Assembly: GCF_021533835.1 (NCBI RefSeq)
Contig: NZ_JAKFYQ010000001.1
Coordinates: 1,150,079 to 1,214,078, forward strand
Source: Synechococcus sp. Nb3U1
GTDB taxonomy: Bacteria; Cyanobacteriota; Cyanobacteriia; Thermostichales; Thermostichaceae
DNA: 64,000 bases
Direction: 5' to 3'
The notes below the pieces were generated by a model, which searched no databases, was not told where the DNA came from, and was given only the letters and a program-made list of their open reading frames with translations. Below are positions 8,989 to 14,709 of the stretch, piece by piece; within the stretch, counting starts at the first letter, position 1, and each line of letters begins with the position of its first letter. The position numbers and the translations under genes are program-made.

Positions 8989-9836
8989 ATGAGTGTCTTA
9001 CCCAGTCTGTTTATCTCTCACGGGGCCCCACTCTGCCCCTAGAATCCGGCCCTGTGGTGCAGTTCCTCCGAGAGTTGGGATCCCTTCTGCCCAACCCCCG
9101 TGCTCTTTTGGTCATTTCCGCTCACTGGGAAACGCCAGTACCTACGGTGAGTGCCGCTGCCCACCCCGCCACCCTCCACGACTTTTACGGATTTCCCCCA
9201 CAGCTTTATCAACTGCGTTATCCCGCCCCAGGAGATCCGGCTCTAGCTGCCCGCGTGAAAGATCTCCTGGATTCAGCCGGGATCCCGACCCAACTTGACC
9301 CAGCACGAGGATTGGATCATGGGGCATGGAACCCACTCCTCTTGACTTATCCCGAAGCCCAGCTCCCGGTGCTGCAGTTGTCGATTCAGCCACAACAGGA
9401 TCCCGCATACCACTACCATCTGGGACAAGCCCTGCAACCTTTACGAGAAGAGGGGGTGCTCATTTTGGCCAGTGGCGGTGCCACCCACAACCTACAGGAA
9501 CTGATCGCGCCTACGTGGCGGAGGCATCTTCCAACAGCCGGTTGGGGAGAACAAGAAGCCGAGTTTGCCACCCAACCCCCCGCTTGGGTAAAAACCTTTG
9601 ACCAATGGCTTGCCGACACCATTACCACTGGACAGGTGGAAAATCTGCTCAACTACCGAACCCTGGCCCCAGAAGCAGTGCGGAACCATCCCCGCGATGA
9701 ACATTTACTGCCCCTCTTTGTGGCGGCTGGAGCCGGAGGCTCTCCCAACTGTTGGGCACAACTTTTTCAGGGCTATACCTATGGAGTGCTGAGCATGGCC
9801 GCCTTTCGCTTTGGAAACATGGATTCTGTTGGGTAG
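8989..9836 (+). pseudogene. DODA-type extradiol dioxygenase gene, frameshifted near the 5' end
   Basis: A LigB/YgiD-type 4,5-DOPA extradiol dioxygenase is encoded in two frames. From ATG 8989 the peptide reads MSVLPSLFISHGAP and then hits TAG within a few codons. The long frame, open upstream of a GTG at 9054, continues through VVQFLRELG and SAHWETP to the end at 9836. Adding one base in the run GGGGCCCC (9022-9029) would restore SHGAPTLPLESGPVVQF, exactly the family sequence. The N-terminal SHGAP histidine is a zinc ligand in this family, so a protein started at 9054 would lack it. The cause could be a sequencing error in a homopolymer or a true one-base deletion. The remainder of the gene is intact. 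Confidence 0.8.
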
Positions 9837-9904
9837 GGATCCAGTCTGGGGGAGAGGGCCTTGTAAGCGATAATGGGTGCGGCGTTTGCACCAATGGCTC
9901 AGCG

Positions 9905-12412
9905 ATGCGCATCTCCTTGAAGTGGCTGCGGGAACTGGTAGACTTCGAGCTTACCCCGGAAGAATTAGGGGAAGCCCTAACCCTGGCAGGGTTTGAAGTG
10001 GAAGATATTGAAGATCGCCGCACCTGGGCAGATGGGGTGGTGCTGGGCAAGATTCTCAAAACAGAGCCTCACCCCAATGCCGACAAGCTACAGGTTTGCC
10101 AAGTAGATCTGGGGGTCAAGCCGCCTTCCACCATCGTCTGTGGAGCAGCCAACGCCCGTGCCGGGATCCTCGTTGCCGTTGCCCCCCCCGGTACCCACTT
10201 GCCCGCCCTCAACCTCACCATCGAAAAAGCCGAGAAACGGGGGGTGACCTCCGCCGGCATGATTTGTTCTCTGGCGGAACTGGGGCTGGAGAAAACTTCT
10301 GAAGGGATCCACGAATTTCCAACCGATTTAGATCTGAAAACCCATCCCCTTGGCTCGGACGTGCGCCCCCTCTTGGGCCTGGATGATGTGGTGCTGGATC
10401 TCACTTCAACCGCCAACCGTGCCGATGCTTTGAGCATGGTCGGCATTGCCCGTGAAGTAGCTGCCCTCACCCGCAACCCCCTGCACCTGCCCTCTATCAC
10501 GGATCTCAAGGCCAAACCTATCGCCGGCCTCAACTTGCAGATTGCCGATGCCAAAGCTTGCCCCGCCTACAGTGGCGTGTTGATTGAGGGGGTGAAAATC
10601 GGCCCTTCCCCCAACTGGCTGAAACACCGTTTGGCGGCGGCTGGCACTCGCTCCATCAATAATGTGGTGGATATCACCAACTTGATCCTTTTGGAATGGG
10701 GGCAACCGCTGCATGCCTTCGATTGGGATCGCCTGCTGGGGGTGATGGGCAAACCGAAAAAGCTTGCTCTCGGAGTCCGCCTTGCCCAAGCCGGAGAAAC
10801 CCTGAAAACCCTGGATGGCCAAACCCGCACTCTGCAGGCCGAGAGCCATCTGATCACCGCTGCTGACAAACCCGTAGCCCTAGCGGGGGTGATGGGGGGT
10901 GAAGAAACCGAGGTCAACCCGGAAACCAGCTCCATTTTTCTAGAAGCAGCCCTGTTCGACCCTGTGGTGACGCGGCGTTCTGCTCGTTCTCAGTCCCTGC
11001 GCACCGAGGCTTCCGCTCGCTATGAACGGGGGGTCAATTTTGCCAGCCTGGATCAGGCGCGGGATCGGGCGGTGCAGCTGATCCTGGAATTGGCCGGAGG
11101 AAAAGTCGTTGGCCTTACCACCTTTGACCAACGGCCCTCCTTGGAGCGCACTCTGGAACTGCGACTGGCGCGATTGATCGACGTATTGGGGGATGATGTG
11201 CGGACAGCGGATGTGGAAGAGATCTTGCCTGCTTTGGGCTTTCAGCTGTCCCCCTGTATCCCCAAGGCGGTCACCAAACCCGGTGCGAAACCCGCTGCTC
11301 CCGAAACTGAAACGGCGGCGGTGGCCCGTTGTGTCTGGCAGGTTCAAGTTCCTCCCTATCGTCTGCGGGATATTGAACGGGAGATCGACCTCATCGAAGA
11401 ATTTGCCCGCCTTTACGGCTACGACCGCTTCTCAGAAACCCTCCCCCCGGAGCCTCAGGTGGGATCCCTTTCTCCACGGGAATCGTTCACTCGCCAAATC
11501 CGAGAAGTGCTGCGCGCCATCGGCCTGACGGAGCTTTACCACCTCTCTTTGTGCCCGGCTGAGGCTGAAGAGAAGGGCTCCAAGAACACCCTAGTGAAAA
11601 TCGCCAACCCCCTCTCGCCGGAATATTCCGCCGTACGGAATGCTCTCCTGCCCGGTTTGGTAGAAGCCTTCCGCTTCAATTGGGATCAGGGCAATGGCCC
11701 ACTGCAAGCCTTTGAAATCGGACGGGTCTTTGCCCACGCTCTTCCCCCTAGCCCCCACCCTTACCAAGAAGCCGATCACATTGGCGGCATTTTGGGCGGG
11801 GATCCCAACCCCAACGACTGGCAGCACCATAATCGACCGATGGATTGGTTCGAGGCCAAGGGGCTACTGGTCTCAGCCTTAGAACGGTTGGGGTTCCACC
11901 CCGAGTTTCGGCTGGATTCGCCCTCTGAGCAATTCCCAGAGCTGCATCCCGGTCGTCAGGCTAGCCTGTGGATTGAGGGATCCCGCATGGGTCTATTGGG
12001 TCAGTTGCACCCCCGCCTTTGTCAAGAAAAAGGCCTGCCGGATCAGGTGTATGTGTTCGAGTTGGAGCTGGATCCCTTGCTGGAAATCCTCGAGAAACGG
12101 GGTATTGTGCAATTTTCCCCCTTCTCGCCTTTTCCTGCTTCGGATCGGGATATCGCCTTTTTTGCCCCAGTTAGGCTTTCTGTGGGGGAACTGGAACAGG
12201 CTATTCGCCAAGCTGGGGGAGAGCTACTCCAGTTGGTGCAATTGTTTGATGAGTACCGTGGCCAGGGAGTACCTGAGGGTCAACGTAGCCTTGCGTTTCG
12301 TTTGGTGTATCGTGCCCCCGATCGCACCCTCACCGACGCCGAAGTAGAGGCTGCCCAAAGCCGGGTAAGAACCCAATTACAAAAACAATTCCAGGTCTCC
12401 TTGCGAAGTTGA
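9905..12412 (+). CDS. pheT: Phenylalanine-tRNA ligase beta subunit
   Basis: PheT is the beta subunit of the (alpha-beta)2 synthetase that charges tRNA-Phe. The 835-residue product starts MRISLKWLRELVDFELTPEELGEALTLAGFEVE. It then carries the tRNA-binding domain (VVLGKILKTEPHPNADKLQVCQVD, residues about 40-150), the B3/B4 editing region with DITNLILLEWGQPLHAFDWD and GVMGGEETEV, B5, the catalytic-like core, and a C-terminal FDX-ACB domain (FSPFPASDRDIAFFAP to the end). A frame-compatible start at 9752 would overlap the dioxygenase and adds unrelated residues. The alpha subunit gene pheS is not in the window, as is common in cyanobacteria. Confidence 0.95.
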   Translation: MRISLKWLRELVDFELTPEELGEALTLAGFEVEDIEDRRTWADGVVLGKILKTEPHPNADKLQVCQVDLGVKPPSTIVCGAANARAGILVAVAPPGTHLPALNLTIEKAEKRGVTSAGMICSLAELGLEKTSEGIHEFPTDLDLKTHPLGSDVRPLLGLDDVVLDLTSTANRADALSMVGIAREVAALTRNPLHLPSITDLKAKPIAGLNLQIADAKACPAYSGVLIEGVKIGPSPNWLKHRLAAAGTRSINNVVDITNLILLEWGQPLHAFDWDRLLGVMGKPKKLALGVRLAQAGETLKTLDGQTRTLQAESHLITAADKPVALAGVMGGEETEVNPETSSIFLEAALFDPVVTRRSARSQSLRTEASARYERGVNFASLDQARDRAVQLILELAGGKVVGLTTFDQRPSLERTLELRLARLIDVLGDDVRTADVEEILPALGFQLSPCIPKAVTKPGAKPAAPETETAAVARCVWQVQVPPYRLRDIEREIDLIEEFARLYGYDRFSETLPPEPQVGSLSPRESFTRQIREVLRAIGLTELYHLSLCPAEAEEKGSKNTLVKIANPLSPEYSAVRNALLPGLVEAFRFNWDQGNGPLQAFEIGRVFAHALPPSPHPYQEADHIGGILGGDPNPNDWQHHNRPMDWFEAKGLLVSALERLGFHPEFRLDSPSEQFPELHPGRQASLWIEGSRMGLLGQLHPRLCQEKGLPDQVYVFELELDPLLEILEKRGIVQFSPFSPFPASDRDIAFFAPVRLSVGELEQAIRQAGGELLQLVQLFDEYRGQGVPEGQRSLAFRLVYRAPDRTLTDAEVEAAQSRVRTQLQKQFQVSLRS

Positions 12413-12463: not shown

Positions 12464-12493
12464 GTTGAGATGTGATGTGAATTACATCTCAAC
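12464..12493 (+). promoter_or_regulatory. Perfect 10-bp inverted repeat between pheT and the peptide gene
   Basis: GTTGAGATGT (12464-12473) and ACATCTCAAC (12484-12493) are perfect inverted complements around a 10-base loop. The hairpin could end the pheT transcript, but no T-run follows. The right arm plus flank (12481-12490) can also pair over 10 positions, including one G-U, with 12582-12591, the stretch beside the ribosome-binding site of the downstream peptide gene. This would give two mutually exclusive structures. Confidence 0.55.
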
Positions 12494-12592
12494 CTTGATC
12501 CGTATCACTTCAATTCTTTTCTGCTGTTTCTATCGTAAGGACATGCGCTACTAAAAGGCGCACTTCCCCCACAACTTCAAGGAGATGTGATC

Positions 12593-12796
12593 ATGGCTAA
12601 CCATAAAAAGGCTTGGGATTCTGCTGATGAATTGACCGATGATGAACTGGAAACCGTGGCCGGGGGCTGGTGTGGGAATGACCTCCGTCCTCGTTTCCCG
12701 ATTCCTCTGCCTGGCCCTGTGGATCCCTTGCGTGGGGTATCTTTGGGTAACGGACTCCTTTTGCCCGCAGTTCAGAAAATCAACCAAGGATTCTAA
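12593..12796 (+). CDS. Small double-glycine leader peptide (RiPP/bacteriocin-like precursor)
   Basis: The 67-residue product has a 25-residue acidic leader containing ELTDDELETVAGG, the classic double-glycine cleavage motif of bacteriocin and RiPP precursors. A 42-residue core beginning WCGNDL follows. The core is rich in proline and glycine (RPRFPIPLPGPVDP) with a hydrophobic C-terminal half, and has only one cysteine, so lanthipeptide rings are unlikely. Such leaders are normally removed by a C39-peptidase ABC transporter during export. No such transporter or modification enzyme is in this window. The start at 12593 is set by AAGGAG at 12579-12584; a GTG at 12587 is too close to that site. 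Function unknown. Confidence 0.72.
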   Translation: MANHKKAWDSADELTDDELETVAGGWCGNDLRPRFPIPLPGPVDPLRGVSLGNGLLLPAVQKINQGF

Positions 12797-12888: not shown

Positions 12889-12914
12889 CCCACCCTCTCA
12901 CTACAAGGGGTGGG
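12889..12914. other. GC-rich hairpin between convergent genes
   Basis: CCCACCC (12889-12895) pairs with GGGTGGG (12908-12914) around a 12-base loop, followed on the plus strand by ACTTCCTTTT. It lies between the convergent peptide and envelope-protein genes and may be a shared terminator. Hairpins of this kind also occur at IS200/IS605 ends, but no transposase remnant is visible. Confidence 0.4.
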
Positions 12915-12956
12915 ACTTCCTTTTAGGGTTTGCTCTCTACTGGGTTAGATCTTCAA

Positions 12957-14465
12957 TCAAGGGAAAGAGAACGTAAATCGACTCGCCGATCCAGTCGCAG
13001 TGGCCGTCCCATTGAACGTTTGCACAATGTTTCCACTCTTCCGTAGCGTCACAGTAAAGGGAATAGGAGCAGTTGATTGGGAACACCGTCTGAACAACAC
13101 CACCTCAATGAGATATCTCCCTGTGGGAGGAGTAGAGGCCCAAAACACATTCTCAACAGGATTCGTCGTCACTCCAGCACAATTGGAATTGGCATCCACA
13201 TCCAGGCGTCCGCCAGAAGGAATACTCGGATTTCCAAAAAATACCGTTTGCTCCCCAGGATCTGTGACATACAGATCCAAATCATCAATCGTGTTCCAAG
13301 TAAGGGTGATCTGAATCGGGCCAGTCCCTAGAGGCGGAGTTGGGGTGGATGTCGGAGTTGGGGTGGAGGCCCCCCCACCGATGGTCTGAGCAAAGTTCCC
13401 TTGGAAGCCATTATTCGCCAGGTAAGTTGCCACCACAGATGCCGGGGTGCCAGGAGCCACCTGAATCGCTACCCCGGTGCCATTACCCCTAGCAAGAAAA
13501 GTATTCCCAGCAATGGTACGGGCTTGAATCCCTTGCAAAATGCGAATGCCAAAACTCCCGGCTATCCCACCCACACCAATCGTATTGGACTGAATTGCCG
13601 GTACAGAACCCGCTCCATCCAGTTGAATGCCAGTAGTACCACTGGTACCTGTTTGCCGCGCCTGAAGCGCTAAGCTAGCCGTGGCTGGATCCCCTTCGAT
13701 TTGATTGTTGCGGAACACCCCACCCGAGCTATCGCTGAAGCGGGCTGCCAAAGCTCCTAATGCCTGCAAAAGAATCCTGTTGTTTTCAATCGTGGGATTG
13801 CTCCCCGGCGCCGTGCCTATGCCCACCCCACCTGTTTTGCTGACAATCGGCGAGACCCGGCTGACCCGGCCATCCCCGGAGATTTGCACACAGGGATCCA
13901 AAAATTGTTGGCACAAAATCTGCGCCAGTTGGCCTAAGGCTCCTTCCAGGACGGCGGCATTGCCATTGACCACAATATTGGAGCGGGGATCATTAAGAGT
14001 GACTTTGCTGGGTTGAAAGGTGCCATTGTTCACCTGGACTCGTCCCCCCCCCAGCACCACCTCTACTCCTTGCAGGCTGGTTTGGCTGGCCACGATCAAG
14101 TCAAAGAGCCCGGTTAAAATCTCATAGGTGACAGAGCTGGTGATGCGAATGCGTCCACCATTGGTGCCATCGCCGCCATCCAGGGCCAGGTTGCTTTGTA
14201 GGGTTTCGCTGCCTGCCCCCAAAATTTCGATGACTACCTCCAGACCTGCCGTGGCATTTTGTAACCGTTGGGCTTCTGCGGTGGCATCTACCAGCTTGGT
14301 GAAGGGGCCATTCACGGGATCCACTCGCAGGGTGACCGATCCAGCTGGAGGCAGAGAAGGGGGGCCACCTGTGCCACCGCCACCACAACTGAGGGCAATC
14401 CCCGCCATTAACGGCAACAGGATGGCACGGATCCCCGTTCGAACTTGAGATGCCTGGCCAGCCAT
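12957..14465 (-). CDS. Secreted envelope protein: beta-helix region plus YfaP/DUF2135-like domain
   Basis: The 502-residue product begins with a basic N-terminus and a hydrophobic segment ending ALSC at about residue 25, followed by a glycine run. This suggests a lipoprotein or secreted protein, although the lipobox is not canonical. The middle (about 80-370) has the imperfect repeats of a right-handed beta-helix, such as NPTIENNRILLQ, GVFRNNQIEGD and VPAIQSNTIGVGG. A PTPTSTPTPP linker leads to a C-terminal domain with TWNTIDDLDLYVTDP, FFGNPSIPSGGRLDVDAN and PTGRYLIEV, which resembles the DUF2135/YfaP fold. The start at 14465 has AAAGGA upstream; an earlier in-frame ATG at 14546 gives an unlikely extension. 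Its role is probably at the cell surface; substrate unknown. Confidence 0.7.
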   Translation of the reverse strand: MAGQASQVRTGIRAILLPLMAGIALSCGGGGTGGPPSLPPAGSVTLRVDPVNGPFTKLVDATAEAQRLQNATAGLEVVIEILGAGSETLQSNLALDGGDGTNGGRIRITSSVTYEILTGLFDLIVASQTSLQGVEVVLGGGRVQVNNGTFQPSKVTLNDPRSNIVVNGNAAVLEGALGQLAQILCQQFLDPCVQISGDGRVSRVSPIVSKTGGVGIGTAPGSNPTIENNRILLQALGALAARFSDSSGGVFRNNQIEGDPATASLALQARQTGTSGTTGIQLDGAGSVPAIQSNTIGVGGIAGSFGIRILQGIQARTIAGNTFLARGNGTGVAIQVAPGTPASVVATYLANNGFQGNFAQTIGGGASTPTPTSTPTPPLGTGPIQITLTWNTIDDLDLYVTDPGEQTVFFGNPSIPSGGRLDVDANSNCAGVTTNPVENVFWASTPPTGRYLIEVVLFRRCSQSTAPIPFTVTLRKSGNIVQTFNGTATATGSASRFTFSFP

Positions 14466-14709
14466 AGGTGGAAAGTCCTTTGTAAGAGCTTGCGGGTAGA
14501 GGTATACCAAGGCAGCTAACAACCACGGCAAAGTACAGGTAGCCAAGCAGAATTGAATACCTTACTGCAAAGTCATCATCGAATCGGATTCCCTCAAAAG
14601 TCAAGCCTTTGCAAGGGATCCGCAATCGAACGGCAACAAATTTTAATTTTAAGAGGTCTTCCCTGAGCGGATGGATCTATCTCCAAACCGTGACTAAGAG
14701 GTGCCAGAT

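Follow-up and report, generated by a model that had tools for sequence, protein, structure and literature searches.

The window analysed here, a 64,000-nucleotide stretch of the Synechococcus sp. Nb3U1 genome, carries a small gene that is best explained, with a probability of roughly 0.6, as a genuine short-leader double-glycine precursor encoded remote from its export machinery, which would be cut after Gly25 and exported by the genome's only C39 cassette, its core probably unmodified. For the peptide itself we infer processing, export, absence of modification and role as follows. The last 13 leader residues would be recognised by the only C39-peptidase ABC exporter in the genome (NHLM type, contig C3), which would cleave after Gly25, and the 42-residue cationic core would pass out of the cell by way of HlyD, the adaptor, and a channel in the outer membrane. 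It would leave without modification, or with nothing beyond dehydration of its one Ser. Its role would most likely be that of a narrow-target, bacteriocin-like or community (biofilm or signal) peptide.

The precursor ORF occupies positions 12593-12796 of the forward strand (67 aa), with its ATG at 12593 and its stop codon at 12794-12796, and is preceded by a strong ribosome-binding site, AAGGAG (12579-12584), placed 8 nt 5' of the ATG and kept in the sister species described below. Translation gives an acidic leader of 25 residues (12593-12667; MANHKKAWDSADELTDDELETVAGG; pI 4.1), conserved in the same species and ending in a consensus double-glycine site with cleavage expected after Gly25, and a cationic core of 42 residues (12668-12796 with the stop codon; WCGNDLRPRFPIPLPGPVDPLRGVSLGNGLLLPAVQKINQGF; pI 9.5) that contains seven Pro, six Gly, seven Leu, one Cys, one Ser and no Thr and would, if unmodified, have an average mass of 4523 Da. 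Translation and composition agree with the initial annotation, which had described a 67-residue precursor with an acidic leader ending at GG and a Pro-rich, 42-residue core with one Cys; its view that the excellent ribosome-binding site made translation likely is borne out by the placing of AAGGAG and by the selection on the leader seen in the sister species.

Upstream lies pheT (phenylalanyl-tRNA synthetase beta; 9752-12412, forward strand; named from sequence, start unrefined), which is outside the system and whose C-terminal part is present in all eight family genomes. Downstream, a terminator-like hairpin (12896-12915, forward strand) is a weak feature, with one found against 0.7 expected by chance, and is followed by a convergent gene (12957-14546, reverse strand) for a putative lipoprotein with beta-helix repeats (a sub-threshold match to Pfam Beta_helix). 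The lipoprotein-like N-terminus of this neighbour, GIALSC, makes its earlier description as an envelope protein plausible, but the adjacency is not conserved; as the neighbour is convergent, and is absent beside the gene in the sister species, its proximity means little, and nothing indicates that it belongs to the peptide system. No immunity-like small gene was recognised beside the precursor gene.

Within ATG-initiated ORFs of 30-160 aa, the strict double-glycine motif, L[ST]xx[EQ]Lxx[VI]xGG, occurs once in the window and not at all in 60 Markov-shuffled windows. When relaxed, the motif turns up 0.72 times per shuffled window, and it must therefore be read strictly. Although the fit to the motif is established, by itself it is good yet inconclusive proof of a gene, and is outweighed by the ortholog with a conserved leader in a sister species. 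The gene is likewise established here, in that a small-peptide gene at 12593-12796 is very probably real.

Among eight genomes of the family, the only other carrier is G007, a species of the same genus and the nearest by PheT identity, in which the gene likewise lies behind pheT; four other species of the genus are without it. The upstream region, ribosome-binding site and leader align closely between the two loci. The 25 leader codons common to both species show six synonymous differences and one nonsynonymous difference (dN 0.017, dS 0.54). The two leaders also differ in length at two places, by 1 and 10 codons, with the frame preserved, and the probability of at most one amino-acid change given seven random substitutions is 0.00065. 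From this excess of synonymous differences it follows that the leader frame is translated and selected. The initial annotation had named the lack of a conserved-leader homologue in related genomes as grounds for rejecting the peptide; the sister species has that leader.

Conservation extends upstream, where a palindrome and a 23-bp block are found in both species with the same spacing in each (48 and 114 nt). The 23-bp block, TTTCTATCGTAAGGACATGCGCT (12527-12549, forward strand), is identical in the alignment of the two loci and may represent a -10 region or transcript start; a sigma-70 consensus scan found no promoter at this position. The palindrome, TGTGATGTGAATTACA (12471-12486, forward strand), is the only match in 64 kb, against 0.10 expected, lies 114 nt before the ATG in both genomes, and is a candidate operator that we take to resemble those of CRP/NtcA. 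A regulon built on it was considered and rejected: the whole genome has seven sites, the reversed control likewise gives seven, and the exporter and precursor loci examined contain none. As its genome-wide frequency equals that of the control, leaving its conserved position to speak for it, the palindrome is treated as a conserved candidate only. Rfam gave no match near threshold for a structured RNA in the upstream region. As a separate observation on the window, GGATCC occurs 222 times against about 19 expected from base composition, GGGATCCC occurring 86 times and GCGATCGC not at all. This GGATCC-based repeat is a highly iterated palindrome like HIP1, the highly iterated palindrome of other cyanobacteria, with a different sequence.

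Similarity to the sister species is lost precisely at the leader/core boundary, marked by the GG codons. The codons that follow GG in that species are TTT TCA TAG, cutting the core to FS-stop, and everything downstream is different, with a porin-like gene (named from sequence only) replacing the putative lipoprotein. Compared statistically, the two downstream sequences show no resemblance, either as DNA or in any reading frame; no copy of the sister species' downstream stretch was found in this genome, and the break is not a contig end (contig 55, 19,703 bases). By our estimate, a rearrangement falling at random in the ORF would have its joint so close to the leader/core boundary, within a few bases, in a few per cent of cases. 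A shifted reading frame of the sister species also gives 42 open codons; this equal length was set aside, since the frameshifted product has no similarity to the core (protein p = 0.64, DNA p = 0.66).

The break may reflect either an exchange of cores, or loss in a species that lacks any sign of the machinery; neither a C39 peptidase or exporter nor a LanM was found in the draft genome of the sister species (99% complete). As that species keeps a selected leader with its core reduced to FS-stop, and neither enzyme is seen there, the gene is dispensable, and perhaps on its way out in the group. Intact Nif11-type precursors (L017, L016) and the short leader persist in that draft, though no C39 peptidase or LanM was found; the precursors of this species have apparently outlived their exporter.

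An improbable account of the same break is that the gene is a relic, once functional, in which only the leader region is intact and the core is an arbitrary sequence captured by rearrangement at the leader/core junction. The end of homology exactly at the GG codons together with the change of flanking gene, the truncated copy in the sister species and the lack of any homologue of the core would all suit such a history, against which stand a core that is open for 42 codons and whose Pro/Gly-rich, cationic composition is that of a typical secreted GG peptide, an exporter that is present in this genome, and a leader with almost no amino-acid change. It is highly improbable that the short leader is itself the object of selection, for example as a regulator of a C39 exporter or an attenuator-type upstream peptide, with a dispensable core: the sister species retains a nearly unchanged leader, ribosome-binding site and upstream region with no core, but with no C39 exporter seen there the leader would have nothing to act on, and the two loci share no downstream gene to regulate. 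A long shot is that the conserved leader serves as a fixed export tag behind which cores are swapped by recombination at the GG junction. In that case the same regulated leader would precede different cores in sister species, or none, and a single promiscuous NHLM exporter would serve unlinked short-leader peptides of unrelated sequence. The two-species comparison is a direct test of core replacement behind a conserved leader, and the leader/core break is the one point worth pursuing.

The initial annotation found no maturation enzyme or exporter nearby, which is true locally, but the genome as a whole has one C39 exporter cassette and a LanM on another contig. The check it proposed, a genome search for a C39-peptidase ABC transporter with an HlyD partner, yielded one such pair on contig C3, where the only C39 peptidase domain of the genome is located (C3:150688-151071, E 1.7e-34), establishing a single exporter cassette. 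This cassette (L011) opens with a two-domain cyclic-nucleotide-binding protein (TIGR03896, 267 bits), followed by HlyD (TIGR03794, 362 bits), the C39-ABC exporter (TIGR03796, 1165 bits) and a second ABC transporter (TIGR03797, 986 bits), with a LanM of 1149 aa beside it in fifth place (L011:15904-19353; TIGR03897, 691 bits); all five scores far exceed their cut-offs. An outer-membrane efflux protein is encoded on the opposite strand a few kb before the cassette. Cassette and LanM together correspond to LanM/NHLM groups IV-V (PMC3140520). With the precursor gene on contig C1 and the exporter on C3, the usual, though not obligatory, adjacency to the exporter is absent; there is precedent in this group for precursors encoded at a distance (PMC2887384).

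Other precursors of this genome are similarly dispersed. About six of Nif11 type are found on C1 (341-343 kb and 1589 kb) and C2 (778-779 kb), all far from the cassette, and a second short-leader double-glycine peptide, MSAQDPSPHSDSLNEADALSDDQLETISGG followed by a 38-aa core, IIIVGGLPSAFSSSLNNVALNPQPLPPRFFRLFNIFRF, is also encoded far from the exporter (L013:4401-4607, reverse strand; C2, about 573.5 kb); this list was built from searches and may be incomplete. Most of the precursors end in nearly the same motif as ELTDDELETVAGG. The Nif11-type genes at 341-343 kb form a row (L012:6410-8310, reverse strand) of near-identical copies and one broken copy, which adjoins a metallo-beta-lactamase-fold gene (L012:8695-10164). 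‘Orphan’ GG precursors in this lineage are thus not without an exporter: one distant cassette probably serves the approximately eight scattered precursors found, two of which have short leaders that Nif11-based searches miss.

For the C39 peptidase LahT150 the last 13 leader residues are sufficient, short-leader precursors are also cut, and V-4, L-7 and L-12 matter according to mutational data (PMC6363468). The leader described here carries A-3, V-4, L-7, E-8, L-12 and GG, as in tested C39 substrates (PMC6363468), and its last 13 residues, ELTDDELETVAGG, are identical at 11 of 13 positions to ELTDEELESVAGG, from one of the genome's own Nif11-type precursors (C2:779k). Because every feature needed by LahT150 is present in the leader, the predicted cleavage of the precursor by the C3 exporter is well supported by analogy. 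The earlier assignment to the C39-exported kind stands, given V-4, L-7, L-12 and GG and the presence of a C39 exporter in this genome.

The LanM beside the exporter has intact dehydratase motifs (SDPHQQG, VYKPK, TDCHFEN, VDGEALF and RST), and the zinc positions of its cyclase are Ala1019, Tyr1064 and Trp1065, as against WCHG in LicM2 and CLCHG in CylM; it is probably a dehydratase only. Cys is absent from the genome's intact Nif11 cores, most of which terminate in KPKW; a weak Nif11 match at C1:1589 kb differs in its atypical, Cys-containing tail. A LanM without zinc ligands is reported together with a Cys-free precursor in Pseudanabaena galeata (PMC11356792), and the LanM and Cys-free, KPKW-ending precursors seen here likely form a dehydration-only system of this ‘cyanotin’ type. 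The leading alternative for the peptide, an unlikely one, is that it is a modified peptide (RiPP), in which the LanM or another unlinked enzyme dehydrates Ser25 or joins Ser25 to Cys2 before cleavage and export. Intact dehydratase motifs in a gene beside the exporter, the frequent action of LanM enzymes on precursors whose genes lie elsewhere (PMC2887384, PMC3140520), and one Ser and one Cys in the core are in its favour, but the zinc ligands of the cyclase are missing, the 25-aa leader is without the Nif11 domain of the genome's other precursors, and a core with one Ser and no Thr is poor LanM material. As the LanM is without the zinc ligands that lanthionine formation requires, and the leader without a Nif11 domain, the core probably leaves the cell without modification, dehydration of its one Ser being the most to be expected.

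Searches for relatives gave little beyond the sister species. No other relative of the full precursor was found at E <= 0.001 in 386 sampled genomes of the phylum, there was no Pfam or NCBIfam match above curated cut-off (including general GG-leader, bacteriocin, microviridin or named RiPP, and CTB models), and the Nif11/NHLP leader models TIGR03798 and TIGR03793 align with only the last 15-17 residues, at 13.5 and 12 bits, below cut-off. Solved structures offered no convincing relative. With one Ser and one Cys in the core, and a sole LanM without zinc-binding cyclase residues, it does not fit class II lanthipeptides. Three further connections were rejected: kinship of the core with the genome's own Pro-rich Nif11 cores is not significant (p 0.06-0.80), a viral origin found no relative in viral contigs or PHROGs, and a metagenome-derived Oscillospiraceae contig matched the leader via its own Nif11-like peptides, a similar kind of leader and not an ortholog. 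Species-specific cores without homologues are usual for such peptides (PMC3140520, PMC4997328). The suggestion that the peptide may be a new class finds no support, because it is normal in such systems for cores to be hypervariable and lack homologues, and for precursors to lie at a distance from the cassette (PMC3140520, PMC2887384); no dedicated modification enzyme was found, and the leader motif is standard and common to the genome's Nif11 precursors. The peptide is a further example of a known, broad kind, the double-glycine peptide exported by a C39 transporter.

Within this kind, the NHLM/Nif11 precursor-export systems of cyanobacteria (TIGR03794/03796/03797; groups IV/V, Wang et al. 2011, PMC3140520) are alike in the GG leader end, the presence of the cassette, scattered precursors and a hypervariable core, but differ in the leader: the one here measures just 25 aa, with neither a Nif11 nor a nitrile-hydratase domain. 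Cyanotin-type LanM systems (Pseudanabaena galeata, PMC11356792) share with this genome a LanM without zinc ligands and Cys-free Nif11 precursors; unlike those substrates the peptide has a Cys and a short leader, and is therefore not the obvious LanM substrate. Class II bacteriocins with a GG leader (Pfam Bacteriocin_IIc, L_biotic_typeA; NCBIfam CTB family) resemble it in their short acidic leader, L-12, L-7, V-4, GG and small cationic core, although all model scores are below the curated cut-off and no immunity gene is seen nearby. In the EbfG1-4/PteB system of Synechococcus elongatus (PMC4997328), a C39 ABC transporter secretes small cyanobacterial proteins that also carry a GG motif; they are similar in having mature parts without homologues elsewhere and Pro-rich stretches in their secreted fragments. 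The ebfG genes, however, are clustered, and the gene described here is single and far from its exporter.
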